This document shows positions 1 to 5,189 of a stretch of DNA of 5,236 nt, piece after piece. This DNA comes from Rickettsiales bacterium (GTDB lineage: Bacteria > Pseudomonadota > Alphaproteobacteria > Rickettsiales > 21-14-0-20-44-7). The translations under genes and the position numbers were made by a program. The stretch covers positions 1 to 5,236 of the forward strand of contig JALZVI010000058.1 of the NCBI GenBank assembly GCA_023301015.1, written 5' to 3'. Numbering within the stretch: position 1 is the stretch's first letter; every line of letters begins with the position of its first letter. The notes below the pieces were generated by a model that searched no databases, was not told where the DNA came from, and worked only from the letters and a program-made list of their open reading frames with translations.

Positions 1-554
1 ATGTCTTTTGCCGTTACGCCAAGCGAAAGCTCGCCGTCAACTTGCACAAGCATGTTTTTTGATTTTGTCTGCATCAACGTTTGTGTGGCAAGCACGTGCT
101 CAACTTCGCTCGTTCCAATTCCGTGCGCCAGCGCGCCAAACGCGCCGTGAGTTGATGTGTGAGAATCGCCACAAACAATGGTCATTCCCGGCTGAGTCAT
201 CCCCTGCTCTGGGCCAACGATGTGAACAACGCCTTGGCGAATGTCGAGCAAGTCCAAATATGGCACGCCGAATTCTTTGCAATTATTTGCTAGCGTATCC
301 ACCTGCAACTTTGCAACTTCGTCCTTAATCCCAGTCGCGCGGCCTTCGGTTGGCACGTTATGGTCAGCCACGGCAAGCGTTGCTTCTGGACGGCGAACCT
401 TGCGGCCAGCATTGCGCAAACCTTCAAATGCTTGCGGCGATGTCACCTCATGCACCAAATGGCGGTCGATATAAAGAGTGGAAACGCCGTTCTCATCTGT
501 GTTCACAACGTGAGAGGCGAAAATTTTATCGTATAATGTAGTTTTGTCTGTCAT
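1..554 (-). CDS. leuC: 3-isopropylmalate dehydratase large subunit, 5' part (runs off the left edge)
   Basis: LeuC, with the small subunit LeuD, isomerises 2-isopropylmalate to 3-isopropylmalate in cytoplasmic leucine biosynthesis, using a [4Fe-4S] cluster. Reading the minus strand from the ATG at 554 gives 184 codons with no stop before the window edge. The translation begins [17 protein letters not shown]. It carries LeuC/aconitase-family landmarks: [20 protein letters not shown] (about residues 28-47), DHNVPT (64-69), [13 protein letters not shown] (113-125), and [20 protein letters not shown] (128-147) followed by [12 protein letters not shown]. The cluster-binding cysteines of the family lie further downstream and are outside the window, so catalytic integrity cannot be judged. 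No good Shine-Dalgarno precedes the ATG; the start is chosen because the N-terminus matches the usual LeuC start. LeuD and LeuB may follow to the left, as is common in alphaproteobacteria, but are not visible. Confidence 0.96.
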
Positions 555-644: not shown

Positions 645-965
645 ATGACAAATGAAAAAACAAATTGGCTGGACGCAGAGAGATCTAGATTTAACGCAGA
701 GTACGAAGAAAGGCGGGAGCTAGCACCTGATTTTCACGGCCCTTTTGGCGATGCAGCTGAAGAAATAAACAACTACGCTAGAGATGAATATGCAAAGCAC
801 CCTGCTGGCAGATGCAAACCTGAAATGCTACAAAGCCTTGCGGACAGAAAATTCCCAAAAGGAGAGACTGTTGACAAAAGTGCCGCGACTTCGGCGCTAA
901 GAGCTGATGTGATTTTGCGCGCACGTGCCGCTAGAGACGCCGACGACAAAAATAATGCCAGATAA
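645..965 (+). CDS. hypothetical protein, 106 aa, highly charged
   Basis: I do not recognise this protein. It starts MTNEKTNWLDAERSRFNAEY and is rich in Glu, Asp, Arg, Lys and Ala throughout, with no signal peptide, membrane segment or cysteine-rich motif (a single Cys near residue 57). It is predicted soluble and largely helical: an acidic N-terminal half (DAAEEINNYARDEYAKHP, about residues 36-53) and a basic C-terminal stretch (RADVILRARAARDADDKNNAR). It has its own promoter just upstream but no Shine-Dalgarno, which fits a leaderless transcript starting at the ATG. It is divergent from leuC and converges with the rplS cluster across a 42-bp gap. Support for it being real is the promoter placement, the clean fit in the gap between neighbours, and a plausible amino-acid composition. 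Function is unknown. Confidence 0.7.
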   Translation: MTNEKTNWLDAERSRFNAEYEERRELAPDFHGPFGDAAEEINNYARDEYAKHPAGRCKPEMLQSLADRKFPKGETVDKSAATSALRADVILRARAARDADDKNNAR

Positions 966-978
966 TAGCAAACATTGG

Positions 979-1009
979 GATAAAAAAATTTTGTAGGGCA
1001 ATTTTTATC
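979..1009. terminator. possible bidirectional AT-rich hairpin between convergent genes
   Basis: GATAAAAA (979-986) and TTTTTATC (1002-1009) form an 8-bp inverted repeat with a 15-nt loop. It lies between the stop of the plus-strand 106-aa gene and the stop of the minus-strand 88-aa gene, just overlapping the latter. Each arm ends in an A/T run, so it could act on both strands. The stem has only two G-C pairs and is weak, so this is a tentative call. Confidence 0.3.
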
Positions 1010-1274
1010 AGCGCTGCTTTTTTTCCAACGCGCCTGCATCTATCTCTTTCTGTATTAAGTCCACCCAATCGAGCAACCCTCTGTCGGCATTGGTATCTTT
1101 CATCCTTTCAACCACTAGCTTTGTTGCTTTTGCAGCAAAGCCCTTCCCGCGCTCTATATTTTCACCAATAACCATCTGGGTTACAGAACCTACCAAGCGA
1201 TCTTTTATCGCTGGAGGAATATAGCTACTACTTGGACTTGATTTTTTTACCATACGCTCTTTGTTTTTTGCCAT
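1008..1274 (-). CDS. hypothetical basic protein, 88 aa, last gene of the rplS cluster
   Basis: Unrecognised. With the chosen ATG at 1274 the protein starts MAKNKERMVKKSSPSSSY. It has a basic, Ser/Pro-containing N-terminus (residues 1-22), then a predicted helical body (AIKDRLVGSVTQMVIGENIERGKGF, 22-46; AAKATKLVVERMKD, 47-60) and an amphipathic end (DWVDLIQKEIDAGALEKKQR). There is no signal peptide, membrane segment or cysteine, so it is probably cytoplasmic. The start is uncertain. An in-frame ATG at 1301 would give 97 aa, placing it 9 nt after the upstream lipoprotein stop, with an odd MTMRFCYGI prefix. An ATG at 1253 has a short GAG just ahead of it. None has a convincing Shine-Dalgarno. 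The spacing suggests co-transcription with rplS and the lipoprotein gene. Alternation of charged and hydrophobic residues supports a real protein. Confidence 0.65.
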   Translation of the reverse strand: MAKNKERMVKKSSPSSSYIPPAIKDRLVGSVTQMVIGENIERGKGFAAKATKLVVERMKDTNADRGLLDWVDLIQKEIDAGALEKKQR

Positions 1275-1310
1275 AATACCATAACAAAAACGCATAGTCA
1301 TTAATTATTT

Positions 1311-1631
1311 TTAATCCAATAGCTCCAGCGGAACTTTTTGCTGCTTCTGGGATGGGTCAACTTTTCTGACTGAACCGATATAGACCTTATTCATTTTTCT
1401 GAGAAGCTGCGGTTGATAGAACCCGCTGCGCCCACATCCAGCTGAAACAAAAATTGGCGTATTTAAAACCAGCCCCGTTTTCAACTCTTCCGCAGGGCAA
1501 TGCAAATCCTTTGCAGCAAAGCGCGCAATTTCATCATAGGTTTCCTGCTGCGAAAGCTTCAGCGCAGGCTTAACGCATGCCGATAGGGTCAATGTTAGTG
1601 ATATTATAAGAAACAGACGAGCAAAACTCAT
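1311..1631 (-). CDS. small lipoprotein with a Cys pair, 106 aa
   Basis: The N-terminus is a classic lipoprotein signal: a short start with an Arg at residue 5, a hydrophobic core (LFLIISLTLTL, 6-16) and the lipobox L16-S17-A18-C19. The product should therefore be lipid-modified at Cys19 and anchored in the cell envelope. The mature part contains DLHCPAEEL (Cys45) and SAGCGRSGFY (Cys66). This spacing of a 'CP' and a 'GCGR' motif is, as I recall, shared by many short uncharacterised proteobacterial lipoproteins, and a Cys45-Cys66 disulfide is plausible in the periplasm. The gene starts 9 nt after the rplS stop, with GAG just before the ATG, and is very probably co-transcribed with rplS. The association with a ribosomal protein gene looks positional rather than functional. 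Exact role unknown. Confidence 0.85.
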   Translation of the reverse strand: MSFARLFLIISLTLTLSACVKPALKLSQQETYDEIARFAAKDLHCPAEELKTGLVLNTPIFVSAGCGRSGFYQPQLLRKMNKVYIGSVRKVDPSQKQQKVPLELLD

Positions 1632-1640
1632 CAGCTCAGA

Positions 1641-2204
1641 TTACTCAGCGGCTGGAGCTTCAGCTGCGGCAGCTGCTTCTTTTGCGGCTTTTGCTGCTTT
1701 TGCTGCGTCAGCTTTTAGCTTTTTTTGCTCTTCAGCACGCACTTTCTTAGCTGCATCACGCTCAACTTTGCGAGCTGCATTTGCTGCCAAACGCTCTTCT
1801 TTAGTAAGCTTCTTAGGCGTTGCTGCCAATTCTTCAGCAGTTTTAACAACGATACGCTCTTTAATACGCGCTTTCTTACCAGTCAAACCACGCATGTAAT
1901 ATAGCTTAGCACGACGAACATCACCTTTGCGAACAACTTCAATTGACTCAAGCAATGGAGAGTAAAGTGGGAACAAACGCTCAACACCTTCACCGTTAGA
2001 AATTTTACGAACAACGAAGCTTGAATTGATGCCGCGTGTTTTACGAGCAATACAAACACCCTCAAAAGCCTGAATACGCTCGTTCGCGCCTTCCTTAATA
2101 CGTACATTCACACGTACAGTATCACCAGCTTTAAACTCAGGAACATTGTTCCCTTCTTTAGCTGTTTCTAGGTTTCTTGCTTCAAATTTTTGTAGTTCGT
2201 TCAT
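1641..2204 (-). CDS. rplS: 50S ribosomal protein L19 with a long Ala/Lys/Glu-rich C-terminal tail
   Basis: L19 sits at the 30S-50S interface of the ribosome. The first ~116 residues are the normal L19 core: [30 protein letters not shown] (21-39), [22 protein letters not shown] (42-63), [20 protein letters not shown] (65-84), and the family end [25 protein letters not shown] (93-117). Residues ~118-187 are an extra 70-residue low-complexity tail of Ala, Lys and Glu, highly charged and probably a long helix or disordered; typical L19 ends near residue 115-130. The start is the ATG at 2204, with GAGA 6 nt upstream. A TTG two codons earlier (2210) is in frame but would leave the GAGA directly adjacent to the start. 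rplS usually follows trmD directly; here a 2.2-kb opposite-strand gene separates them, so rplS needs its own promoter, for which there is a good candidate. Confidence 0.97.
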
Positions 2205-2210
2205 GACCAA

Positions 2211-2214
2211 TCTC
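2211..2214 (-). promoter_or_regulatory. Shine-Dalgarno of rplS, decides the start
   Basis: GAGA on the minus strand, 6 nt before the ATG at 2204. This spacing favours the ATG over the in-frame TTG at 2210, which would leave no gap. Confidence 0.5.
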
Positions 2215-2237
2215 GATTAAATTTATATTGAGGAAGG

Positions 2238-2266
2238 CTTTTAGCAGATGTTGATTAGCAATGCAA
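2238..2266 (-). promoter_or_regulatory. candidate rplS promoter
   Basis: TTGCAT (2266-2261), a 17-nt spacer and TAAAAG (2243-2238), the latter preceded by TGC (extended -10-like), on the minus strand. It predicts a 5' leader of roughly 25-30 nt before the rplS start. The placement is sensible because the opposite-strand amidase gene cuts rplS off from the usual trmD transcript. One arm of the 10-bp inverted repeat (2247-2256) falls within the spacer. Confidence 0.5.
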
Positions 2267-2329
2267 CTTGATTTTTACTGAAAAAAACATCATTAACCAC
2301 AAACAAATAACTTAATAAAAATCAACATC
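2247..2329. repeat. 10-bp perfect inverted repeat in the rplS/amidase intergenic region
   Basis: GATGTTGATT at 2247-2256 and its exact reverse complement AATCAACATC at 2320-2329, 63 bp apart. One arm lies in the spacer of the rplS promoter and the other lies upstream of the amidase promoter. It could be a paired operator for divergent regulation, or a long-range hairpin. No known regulator consensus was recognised. Confidence 0.5.
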
Positions 2330-2347
2330 GTAATAAAATCGTAATAA
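2313..2347 (+). repeat. AT-rich short direct repeats upstream of the amidase promoter
   Basis: ATCGTAATAA occurs at 2327-2336 and again at 2338-2347, a period of 11 bp (about one helical turn). A related TAATAAAAATC lies at 2313-2323. They end just before the candidate -35 box at 2351, so they could be an activator site or an UP-like AT-rich element. AT-rich low complexity is the simpler alternative. Confidence 0.4.
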
Positions 2348-2350
2348 TTC

Positions 2351-2379
2351 TTGTGTATGTTTGTATTTAAGGATAATTA
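2351..2379 (+). promoter_or_regulatory. candidate promoter of the amidase gene
   Basis: TTGTGT (2351-2356), a 17-nt spacer and TAATTA (2374-2379), which would start transcription about 10 nt before the ATG at 2396. The boxes are partial matches in an AT-rich stretch. The short leader would still include the GGA at 2387-2389, a minimal Shine-Dalgarno core 6 nt before the ATG. Confidence 0.35.
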
Positions 2380-2397
2380 ATTTTACGGATTTATTAT
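2378..2397 (+). repeat. left copy of a direct repeat bracketing the amidase gene
   Basis: A 20-nt sequence containing TACGGATTTAT runs into the amidase ATG. Its partner at 4559-4579 matches at 19 of 20 aligned bases, with one extra base. The left copy includes the presumed Shine-Dalgarno GGA. Confidence 0.5.
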
Positions 2398-4561
2398 GGC
2401 AATAGTACCAGTGGGAAGCATTAAAGTGGTTGACGGAAAAATTGTAGCACGCGATACGAGCGAAAGCCCGCGCACACCAAGCCGCAGCTCGGGGGGAAGC
2501 TCAAGCAGCAAGCCTGACAGCACTCCATCATATACACCAAGCAAAAGCGCGCCGTCATATTCACCAGGAAGAGACACTGGGCACGACTATTCAACAAGCG
2601 CAACGGGCACGGATATTGAGCAGCTTGATTTTAATGGAATTAAGCGCGAGCTTAAAGAGCTGGACGATTACGCAAAAACTACGCAGGGCAGACCTACAGC
2701 GCCAGGATTTAATATTTTAATCGGACATGCCAGAAATTATCGTGGCGGGAATGACTTAGGTGCAGAACATAATGGCCTTAATGAGGTTGAAATTAATATC
2801 GCATTAGCGCACCACGTTATTACGCGCGCTAAAGATGCAGGGTACAATGTTTACATCATCAATGACCATGAAGACATGACATCAAAATCCATGCCCAAAG
2901 AAAGTGGCCCCCATAGACTCAGTGAGGCGCATCAAAACCTATCTAAGCATGGCGGCAAAGGGATGACGATTGAGTTGCATAGTAATGATACTGCAAGATA
3001 TCTAACAAATTCAAAAGGACAATACCTTAGAGATTCTGACGGAGACAAGATACCTAACCCGAGAAGAAGTGTTGCCAGTGGTTTTTCTACGCATGCTAAA
3101 CCCGGAACAGAAGGGTGGAAACTGGCTGACGATATATTGAAAAATGTGGAGAACACAAACACGTTCCCTAGCCGCGGCATAAGTAACCTTGGAGTTACAA
3201 CAGTTGCGAGAAGTCGAGCTGATGAAGCATATACGCTAATTGAAACTGGCTTTGTTGTTGCAGATTACAAGCGTTTCAATAATGAGAACATGGAAAAAGT
3301 TGCCGCTGGAATTCTTGACGGGGCAATTCAATATAGCCAACGCCATGGCCATAATCTTAACCCTGAAGTTACAGCACCTGGGCATTTTTTAGCAAAGCTG
3401 AACAGCTCTCAAGCAACTCCCTCTGAAACAATGATGGCATCAAACTTCCAAGGCGATGAGGCTCTTAAATATGGCCCACCTAGAGAAGAAAACGCGATTG
3501 GGCATAATTTAGACGGCCTATCTGCAGAGGACTTGGTTCCTGGCGGCAACTTGTCTTTAGCTGAGGCAAGAGCAGTTTCGGCGCAAGCAAACCCCGTAGC
3601 TGGACAGCCTCAAGACTTCGGAGTGCCTGGATCGCCCTCAACTATGGTTGCGGCGGCAGCACTACCAACATTCACTCCACCTAAAGACCTTATATTACCG
3701 GCAATTCCTGACATTCAAATCGCTGCAAAATTCAGTGAAGAGGTTGTTGCGCCCGCAGTGCCATCGCCTCCTGCCGTAGAGGCAGTTAAAGAGACCGTGA
3801 TCGCGAAGGCTGAAAAAGTTACAAAAGATGCACCAGCGCAAGAAAAAGCTGAAGCAATTGCAAAGGCAGCGCCCGCGCAATCTAGCCCAGCAAACAGCAT
3901 TCCTGCGATGCCCGAAGCGGCAAAAGCTCAAGCACGAAGCGCAGTAGCAGCAATGAAGCCAGCTGCCACCGAGTTTGACAAACCAGCTGTTGGCACAAAT
4001 ACGGAGCAACTTGAAGTAGGCAAATTGCAGTTAGCAGATGTGCCTGAGTTCAACGAGCCAAAGGCAGCGCCAACTCCAAGTGCGACAGAAAAAGTGCAGG
4101 AAATGTTCGCACGCTTTAACGGCGAAAGTGGCAAGCCTGTTTATGTCTATAAAACTAGCGACAAGCTGTCGGCGAAGCAAGTTGAAGCTGCAACTTTTGT
4201 GCAGAGAGTATACAATGAAATACTTGGCGCTGAGATCCCAACAGAAGAATTGGGACATGTTGCAGGTGGAAAAACCGCAAGCCTAACCAAGCAATATCAA
4301 GAGCAAAACAGCCTTAAGGGCGATGGAATTGTTGGCCCAGATACATACGACAAAATGGAATCTGACATCTTGACACTGATAGCAAAAAACACAGAGATAT
4401 CGGACACGATGATGGCTATGGCTGATGACATCAAGGTTAAGGCGTTGGCCGAGAAGATCAATGAAGACAAAGGGACCCTCCCAGGAACTTCTGGTGCAAA
4501 ACCTAGCGAACTTATTGCTCAGGCTTCTCAGACACAAGATCCGGACGTCGCTCGTTCGTAA
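2396..4561 (+). CDS. large modular zinc amidase (Amidase_3-type N-acetylmuramoyl-L-alanine amidase) with PG-binding-like C-terminus
   Basis: Predicted to cleave the amide bond between N-acetylmuramic acid and the L-Ala of peptidoglycan stem peptides. Residues 1-75 are Ser/Pro/Thr-rich and disordered, with no Sec or Tat signal peptide. Residues ~103-318 are an Amidase_3 domain: IGHARNYRGGNDLGA (zinc ligand His111), GLNEVEINIALA (zinc ligand Glu130), IELHSND (zinc ligand His195, in place of the usual SIHAN) and LIETGF (catalytic Glu283). All key residues are present. Between His195 and Glu283 there is an insert with a Ca-binding-like loop, DSDGDKIPN (213-221). Residues ~330-565 are a Pro/Ala/Glu/Lys-rich linker. 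Residues ~592-655 resemble PG_binding_1 (ASLTKQYQEQNSLKGDGIVGPDTYDKM), a wall-anchoring module. The 721 aa are far longer than a simple amidase. It lies opposite and between trmD and rplS and overlaps trmD by 50 bp. It could be an endolysin-like enzyme, a non-Sec secreted effector or a lineage-specific wall hydrolase. The enzyme family is confident; the biological role is not. Confidence 0.9.
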   Translation: MAIVPVGSIKVVDGKIVARDTSESPRTPSRSSGGSSSSKPDSTPSYTPSKSAPSYSPGRDTGHDYSTSATGTDIEQLDFNGIKRELKELDDYAKTTQGRPTAPGFNILIGHARNYRGGNDLGAEHNGLNEVEINIALAHHVITRAKDAGYNVYIINDHEDMTSKSMPKESGPHRLSEAHQNLSKHGGKGMTIELHSNDTARYLTNSKGQYLRDSDGDKIPNPRRSVASGFSTHAKPGTEGWKLADDILKNVENTNTFPSRGISNLGVTTVARSRADEAYTLIETGFVVADYKRFNNENMEKVAAGILDGAIQYSQRHGHNLNPEVTAPGHFLAKLNSSQATPSETMMASNFQGDEALKYGPPREENAIGHNLDGLSAEDLVPGGNLSLAEARAVSAQANPVAGQPQDFGVPGSPSTMVAAAALPTFTPPKDLILPAIPDIQIAAKFSEEVVAPAVPSPPAVEAVKETVIAKAEKVTKDAPAQEKAEAIAKAAPAQSSPANSIPAMPEAAKAQARSAVAAMKPAATEFDKPAVGTNTEQLEVGKLQLADVPEFNEPKAAPTPSATEKVQEMFARFNGESGKPVYVYKTSDKLSAKQVEAATFVQRVYNEILGAEIPTEELGHVAGGKTASLTKQYQEQNSLKGDGIVGPDTYDKMESDILTLIAKNTEISDTMMAMADDIKVKALAEKINEDKGTLPGTSGAKPSELIAQASQTQDPDVARS

Positions 4562-5189
4562 TTTCTACGGATTTATCATATCGCCATTTCTCAATCTTAG
4601 CATGGTCACCACCGCGCAAAACTTCTGGGACTTCCCTGCCCTTCCACTCGGCGGGACGTGTATAGTGCGGATATTCTAGCAAGCCGTTTGAAAAGCTCTC
4701 CTCTTCATGCGTCCCCGCATTGCCCACAACGTCTGGCAGCAAACGCACCACAGCGTCCATCAACACAAGTGCAGCAGACTCACCGCCTGATAATATATAA
4801 TCACCGATCGAAATTTCCTCCACGTCATATTCCTCAAGCACCCGCTCATCAATACCCTCAAAACGCCCGCAAATAATCGTCAGCTCGGCCTCACCTACCA
4901 GCTCCACAGCTTTCGCCTGAGTTAGCGGCTTTCCGCGCGGGGACATATATATGGTTTTTTTCGGCTTGATTGAATCAATCGCCTCGCCCAGCACATCGGC
5001 CTTCAGCACCATGCCAGCACCGCCACCATAAGGAGAGTCATCAACTTGACGGTGTTTGCCCTGCCCGAACTCTTTGAGGTCAACAGCATTCAACTCCCAC
5101 AAGCCCTTTTCCAAAGCCGCCCCCGCCAGCGAGTGACCGAGCGTTGAAGGAAACATTTCGGGGAATAATGTAATTATGTTGAATTTCAT
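4512..5189 (-). CDS. trmD: tRNA (guanine-N1-)-methyltransferase
   Basis: TrmD methylates N1 of G37, 3' of the anticodon, using S-adenosylmethionine, and so prevents +1 frameshifting. The 225-aa product shows the whole family pattern: MKFNIITLFPEMF (1-13), the basic/Gly loop DDSPYGGGAGMV (50-61), and the SAM-binding trefoil-knot segments YMSPRGKPLTQ (81-91), CGRFEGIDERV (107-117) and EISIGDYILSGGE (125-137). It ends with EEESFSNGLLEYPHYTRP (162-179), VPEVLRGGDHAKIEKWR (187-203) and ERRPDL (213-218). The residue matching the catalytic Asp of gammaproteobacterial TrmD (Asp-Ser-Phe) is Glu164 here, which I believe is common in alphaproteobacteria. The ATG at 5189 is preferred over an in-frame TTG at 5228 because it matches the family N-terminus and has GGGAG 10 nt upstream. 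The last 50 bp overlap the 3' end of the opposite-strand amidase gene. Confidence 0.97.
   Translation of the reverse strand: MKFNIITLFPEMFPSTLGHSLAGAALEKGLWELNAVDLKEFGQGKHRQVDDSPYGGGAGMVLKADVLGEAIDSIKPKKTIYMSPRGKPLTQAKAVELVGEAELTIICGRFEGIDERVLEEYDVEEISIGDYILSGGESAALVLMDAVVRLLPDVVGNAGTHEEESFSNGLLEYPHYTRPAEWKGREVPEVLRGGDHAKIEKWRYDKSVEITNERRPDLVSEKPEQ
4559..4579 (+). repeat. right copy of the direct repeat, starting at the amidase stop codon
   Basis: The 21-nt copy starts with the TAA stop of the amidase gene and lies inside trmD, where the other strand encodes Lys-Ser-Val-Glu-Ile (about residues 206-210). It shares the 11-bp core TACGGATTTAT (4566-4576) and most flanking bases with the left copy. 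Confidence 0.5.

Follow-up and report, generated by a model that had tools for sequence, protein, structure and literature searches.

How does an enzyme that would cut peptidoglycan reach its substrate when it carries no export signal, and how did its gene come to lie antisense between trmD and rplS? Both questions are raised by the window analysed here, a stretch of 5,236 nucleotides from a Rickettsiales bacterium (contig JALZVI010000058.1), in which a sequence-only reading had recognized a large zinc amidase gene. The features of this locus and two wall-hydrolase genes of the nearest genome are listed in Table 1.

Table 1. Features of the window and, with locus prefix, of the nearest genome G001
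Feature	Position	Strand	Basis
Aconitase-family (leuC-like) gene	3-554	-	
Small ORF between rplS and leuC-like gene	645-965	+	
Small ORF between rplS and leuC-like gene	1008-1301	-	
Lipoprotein-like ORF, 106 aa, directly downstream of rplS	1311-1631	-	
rplS (ribosomal protein L19)	1641..2204	-	Pfam E 1.6e-47
Divergent intergenic region, rplS / amidase gene	2205..2395	.	
Signal-less Amidase_3 protein, 721 aa, cysteine-free	2396..4561	+	
Ser/Pro/Thr-rich N-terminal linker, residues 20-95, probably disordered	2453..2680	+	Sequence reading
Amidase_3 domain, residues 109-309	2720..3322	+	Pfam and fold
H111, predicted zinc ligand	2726..2728	+	Alignment column invariant
E130, predicted zinc ligand	2783..2785	+	Alignment column nearly invariant
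H195, predicted zinc ligand	2978..2980	+	Alignment column invariant
E283, predicted catalytic glutamate	3242..3244	+	Alignment column invariant
Ala/Pro-rich linker, residues 330-555	3383..4060	+	Sequence reading
PG_binding_1-like stretch, residues 624-654, under Pfam cut-off	4265..4357	+	
Antisense overlap, 50 bases, 3' ends of amidase gene and trmD	4512..4561	.	
trmD	4512..5189	-	Pfam E 4.3e-57
Giant wall hydrolase of G001, 2,124 aa, no signal peptide	L177:3246-9620	-	
Amidase_3 protein of G001, 687 aa	L083:14234-16297	-	

The window gene encodes a predicted zinc-dependent amidase

In a Pfam profile search the window protein matched Amidase_3 (PF01520) with 45.4 bits against a curated cut-off of 27, and the domain has the amidase fold; identity to the aligned relatives is just 15-24%. 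The complete catalytic set that had been claimed for the protein was borne out by this score, by the agreeing fold and by the alignment, where H111, H195 and E283 are invariant and E130 nearly so. We take the roles of the H, E and H residues as zinc ligands, and of the last glutamate as the catalytic residue, to be those known from the Amidase_3 family. By family, fold and active-site residues, it is near certain in silico that the protein is a zinc-dependent N-acetylmuramoyl-L-alanine amidase. The claimed PG-binding-like C-terminus fared less well: PG_binding_1 (PF01471) reached 19.3 bits, short of the 23-bit cut-off, and the structural model of the C-terminus was uninformative. Pfam gave no RTX match in the protein, and no AMIN domain at E up to 1, a domain that occurs in AmiB and AmiC. 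From AmiA, AmiB, AmiC, CwlD and CwlV, which belong to the same family, the window protein differs by having neither a signal peptide nor an AMIN match, and by its long linkers and length of 721 aa.

The ORF upstream of the amidase gene is rplS, on the opposite strand, and the lipoprotein-like ORF lies beyond rplS; promoter-like matches in the divergent region between the two genes were no more than expected by chance. The aconitase-family gene is presumably leuC, in line with the leuC-like gene that neighbours rplS in many loci. The three small ORFs at 645-965, 1008-1301 and 1311-1631 matched no family significantly and lack a good homologue among the loci compared. The last of these, the lipoprotein-like ORF, was considered as an immunity protein but is not supported in that role, being separated from the amidase gene and giving no match better than E 0.09 in the loci compared; no immunity gene for the amidase could be named in the window.

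trmD and rplS are split in two genomes

In a survey of 80 named genome loci for L19, rplS and trmD were both present in 75. Their matches are spaced by at most 281 bases in 72 of these, and by 663, 1,111 and 1,202 bases in the other three; no amidase homologue was detected by tblastn at E 0.001 in any of the 80 loci. A survey of relatives of G001 covered 55 genomes including G001 itself, of which 42 have trmD and rplS on one contig and strand; in the remaining 13, the genes are on separate contigs (seven), only the L19 match is missing (two) or both matches are missing (four). The two genes are adjacent, 8-244 bases apart, in 38 of the 42 genomes and far apart in G003 and G008. The spacing is 902 bases in G047, with a 233-aa ORF inside on the trmD strand that is by reading not an amidase, and 6,607 bases in G001.

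G001 (L001, PCXJ01000100.1; Alphaproteobacteria bacterium CG11_big_fil_rev_8_21_14_0_20_44_7), a draft assembly broken into more than 100 contigs, is the nearest genome found. Its TrmD is 72-73% identical to that of the window, and in a tree of 54 rows the two are sisters with support 99/92. The gene of a giant wall hydrolase, with a TTG start, sits antisense between trmD and rplS of this genome, both of which were confirmed. In Pfam the giant has Amidase_3 and Peptidase_M23 over the cut-off, Lipase_GDSL barely over it and PG_binding_1 below it, and its sole database match is itself. The 687-aa protein is encoded next to trmD on the side opposite the giant; it has no N-terminal signal, and its single hydrophobic stretch lies inside the protein, around residue 288. 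These signal-less proteins are the only two Amidase_3 matches in G001. By eye, the N-terminus of the 687-aa protein looks RlpA-like.

In two genomes, then, a wall-hydrolase gene on the opposite strand separates trmD from rplS. The sequence-only reading had proposed a lineage-specific insertion into a normally adjacent pair; the adjacency in 38 of 42 genomes supports this, whereas a one-genome event does not fit, as G001 shares the arrangement. Because G001 carries a signal-less antisense wall hydrolase at the same spot, the insertion probably predates the split between the window and G001 and, on the basis of these two genomes, is lineage-specific rather than private to one of them. The domains are very diverged, with 10 changes per column on the terminal branch of the window amidase. 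Since this is too much divergence to demonstrate orthology, the claim is limited to a shared slot and a shared type of enzyme: by position and family, the trmD-rplS gap is in two genomes a fast-changing slot for signal-less wall hydrolases.

Export signal and composition

Signals were called by hydropathy and motif reading. This reading found no N-terminal signal peptide in the window protein, in agreement with the earlier claim that Sec and Tat signals are absent: the best 11-residue hydrophobic mean ahead of the domain is 1.90, and the first 80 residues contain no twin-arginine motif. The frame has no upstream extension. For the classical amidases of relatives (30 loci, 25 of them locatable by motif), the hydrophobic mean exceeds 2.2 in 24 of the 25, and the remaining one, at 2.11, has a plain signal-like stretch. 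A signal-bearing orthologue in relatives had been named as evidence that would refute the claim; both amidases of G001 likewise lack an N-terminal signal. A non-Sec destination of the window protein is likely.

Cysteine is absent from all 721 residues of the window protein, where about five would be expected at the median of long G001 frames. This median fraction is 0.0067 in 109 unmasked frames of at least 600 aa, and 0.0065 with six masked frames included. Because eight of the 109 frames are also cysteine-free, some of them flagellar-looking, the absence of cysteine is suggestive but not specific. A composition filter, which excluded frames with a strong hydrophobic stretch, more than a trace of cysteine or many large hydrophobics, retained five of 420 G001 frames of at least 350 aa, among them the 687-aa amidase; the window protein passes the same limits and the giant narrowly fails, on cysteine. 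The filter is descriptive, because its thresholds were chosen after these proteins had been seen. No terminal signal common to the candidate effectors was found.

Secretion systems and host lineage

The genes of an rvh-like type IV secretion system (T4SS), VirD4 among them, are present in G001. One contig carries VirB9, VirB10, a VirB11-like ATPase and VirD4 together, a second has two VirB2 and a 613-aa VirB4, and a third has VirB3 and a 799-aa VirB4; the amidase genes are on other contigs than the T4SS genes. Among the 55 genomes searched, which include G001, 54 contain VirB4 and 41 contain at least two copies of it. According to PMC9352585, an rvh T4SS with duplicated components is characteristic of Rickettsiales, and virB4 was duplicated already in their last common ancestor. 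The paper also describes proteins with PG-binding domains in Mitibacteraceae and puts forward a T4SS that kills bacteria, with cell-shape remodelling as an alternative use of these proteins; PMC11077975 repeats this account, and PMC10847448 adds further basal families and states that the basal families have FhaBC proteins. The G001 assembly is not named in the main text of any of these three papers. We infer that G001 and the window fall among basal Rickettsiales, and the window organism appears to be a free-living relative of Rickettsia. A single-profile search found no VipB/TssC (type VI) in G001.

A candidate T4SS effector and the alternatives

The best reading of these data, which we hold tentatively and at somewhat less than even chance, is that the window protein is a candidate antibacterial effector delivered by the Rickettsiales-type (rvh) T4SS. 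The amidase, predicted from family, fold and active-site residues to cut peptidoglycan, would be harmless in the producer cytoplasm for want of a Sec or Tat signal. It would leave through the rvh T4SS via the VirD4 coupling protein and, once in the periplasm of a neighbouring bacterium, would strip stem peptides and weaken the wall. The trmD-rplS gap of the lineage, judged from position and family in two genomes, hosts such quickly changing enzymes. T4SS delivery is the best single route, likewise at somewhat less than even chance because all T4SS evidence comes from other genomes: the rvh T4SS with VirD4 was read in the sister genome. It is possible, although less likely than not, that a deep-branching, free-living Rickettsiales-like lineage keeps in the fast-changing trmD-rplS slot a set of signal-less, often multi-enzyme wall hydrolases that its rvh T4SS injects into rivals.

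The protein could instead be a phage-derived or domesticated endolysin, kept in the cytoplasm and freed at lysis by a prophage, a gene transfer agent or programmed lysis. This is unlikely, although the missing signal would suit it, viral amidases such as the phage Amidase_3 endolysins PlyPSA (1xov) and CD27L (3qay) have the same fold, and a single HK97-type capsid gene lies elsewhere in G001, on a separate contig. PHROG endolysin profiles match as well (phrog_435, E 1.4e-07 for the window protein and 1e-26 for the giant), but they may mirror domains only, because they are placed on the Amidase_3 and PG-binding-like parts. Unlike these endolysins, the window protein is much larger, and the 5.2-kb window shows no phage context: its gene is flanked by rplS and trmD, with the leuC-like gene and small ORFs as further neighbours and no lysis cassette around it, and PHROG profiles matched none of the four other window ORFs scanned at E up to 0.1, within the limited view of 5.2 kb. 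By reading, no holin was recognized among the ORFs around the G001 genes; an IMG/VR pattern scan found no relative, and the lengths (721 and 2,124 aa) and long linkers of the two proteins also speak against an endolysin. The effector route is better backed than a holin-dependent lysin because G001 has a VirD4-bearing T4SS, and the lysin route is less backed because the four scanned ORFs lack a phage-family match.

Since the only two Amidase_3 matches of G001 are signal-less, against a high-scoring classical one in 37 of the 55 genomes searched, the enzyme might replace a missing AmiC-type amidase in division or growth of the producer's own wall, through an unrecognized export route. We consider this quite unlikely: the classical gene may simply be absent from the draft, 16 of the 55 genomes have no Amidase_3 match at all, division amidases work in the periplasm and the relatives' versions carry signals, and the divergence of the amidase domains is unlike that of a conserved division enzyme. 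Secretion through a type I system, or along some other non-Sec path, would suit a cysteine-free protein with few large hydrophobics, which are features frequent in exported proteins, and a 684-aa, cysteine-free RTX-repeat protein of G001 (L217:6335-8386, +) suggests the possible presence of a type I system. This route appears very unlikely, as the window protein has no RTX match and single-profile searches found neither a type I HlyD nor a PrtD-type ABC protein over the cut-off in G001; the lone HlyD match falls within the giant's M23 part, and the best PrtD-type match is an ABC protein truncated by the contig start, with no adjoining adaptor gene recognized. Because G001 is a draft, its missing type I and type VI genes prove little. 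A VirB1-like role in wall remodelling for the T4SS is highly improbable; VirB1 of X-T4SSs is likewise signal-less according to PMC6536674, but the fold here is that of an amidase, not SLT, and the amidase genes of G001 are apart from its T4SS contigs.

Comparison with known effector systems

The C-terminus of the window protein gave no XVIPCD-like match in Pfam, which we take to include an XVIPCD model; its last 120 residues comprise the PG-binding-like stretch and seven Gln, three of them in the last 60. X-Tfe effectors of the bacteria-killing T4SS of Xanthomonadales, as described in PMC6536674, end in an XVIPCD of about 120 residues with a Gln-rich tail, and an upstream gene encodes the cognate inhibitor, usually a lipoprotein. 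The window protein resembles them as a signal-less wall hydrolase whose gene, as far as the sister genome indicates, is distant from T4SS genes, and X-Tfe producers likewise have a VirD4-bearing T4SS, here in the nearest available genome. It differs in having no XVIPCD and no recognized lipoprotein inhibitor gene upstream, and in the rvh-like type of the T4SS. Because the XVIPCD is missing and no inhibitor gene was identified, we do not class the protein as an X-Tfe; by analogy, we propose that it may work as an X-Tfe effector would.

The PG-binding-domain proteins of basal Rickettsiales, which have been proposed as rvh substrates (PMC9352585), offer a closer parallel in lineage, their carriers probably belonging to the same order as the window, and in the combination of a PG-binding-like stretch, here sub-threshold, with an rvh-like T4SS, here in the sister genome. 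The available passages name no amidase or locus for them, and the word "amidase" is missing from the main text of that paper, whereas the window protein has a predicted catalytic site and a fixed genomic site. For the role of the Rickettsiales T4SS before it served host infection, the bacteria-killing proposal rested on the presence of PG-binding-domain proteins (PMC9352585). The proteins named here combine an intact catalytic site and a missing export signal with a VirD4-bearing system in the sister genome; the proposal therefore becomes testable with cloned proteins, even though metagenomes are the only source of these organisms here. If true, the reading of the trmD-rplS slot as a store of wall hydrolases for injection into rivals would provide genomic evidence that the machine rickettsiae now direct at cells of animals and protists was originally an antibacterial weapon.

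Other candidate genes in G001 and relatives

G001 also encodes a two-partner secretion pair, a TPS-domain protein with an ShlB/FhaC protein (L083:1-4598, -), which is another possible bacterial-competition system, and a 236-aa Amidase_2 protein with a PG-binding-like C-terminus (L290:2948-3655, -). A frame without cysteine, at least 1,173 aa long and with no recognized signal (L216:5206-8724, +; best Pfam E 0.09), runs off its contig. Second Amidase_3 genes were noted in two relatives. That of G047 (L176:2365-3624, +) encodes a signal-less protein of 419 aa with a Pro-rich N-terminus and lies, by eye, between ispA-like and tlyA-like genes. That of G029 (L175:2887-3966, -) is on the strand of rplS and about 180 bases downstream of it, and its product has a hydrophobic N-terminus.
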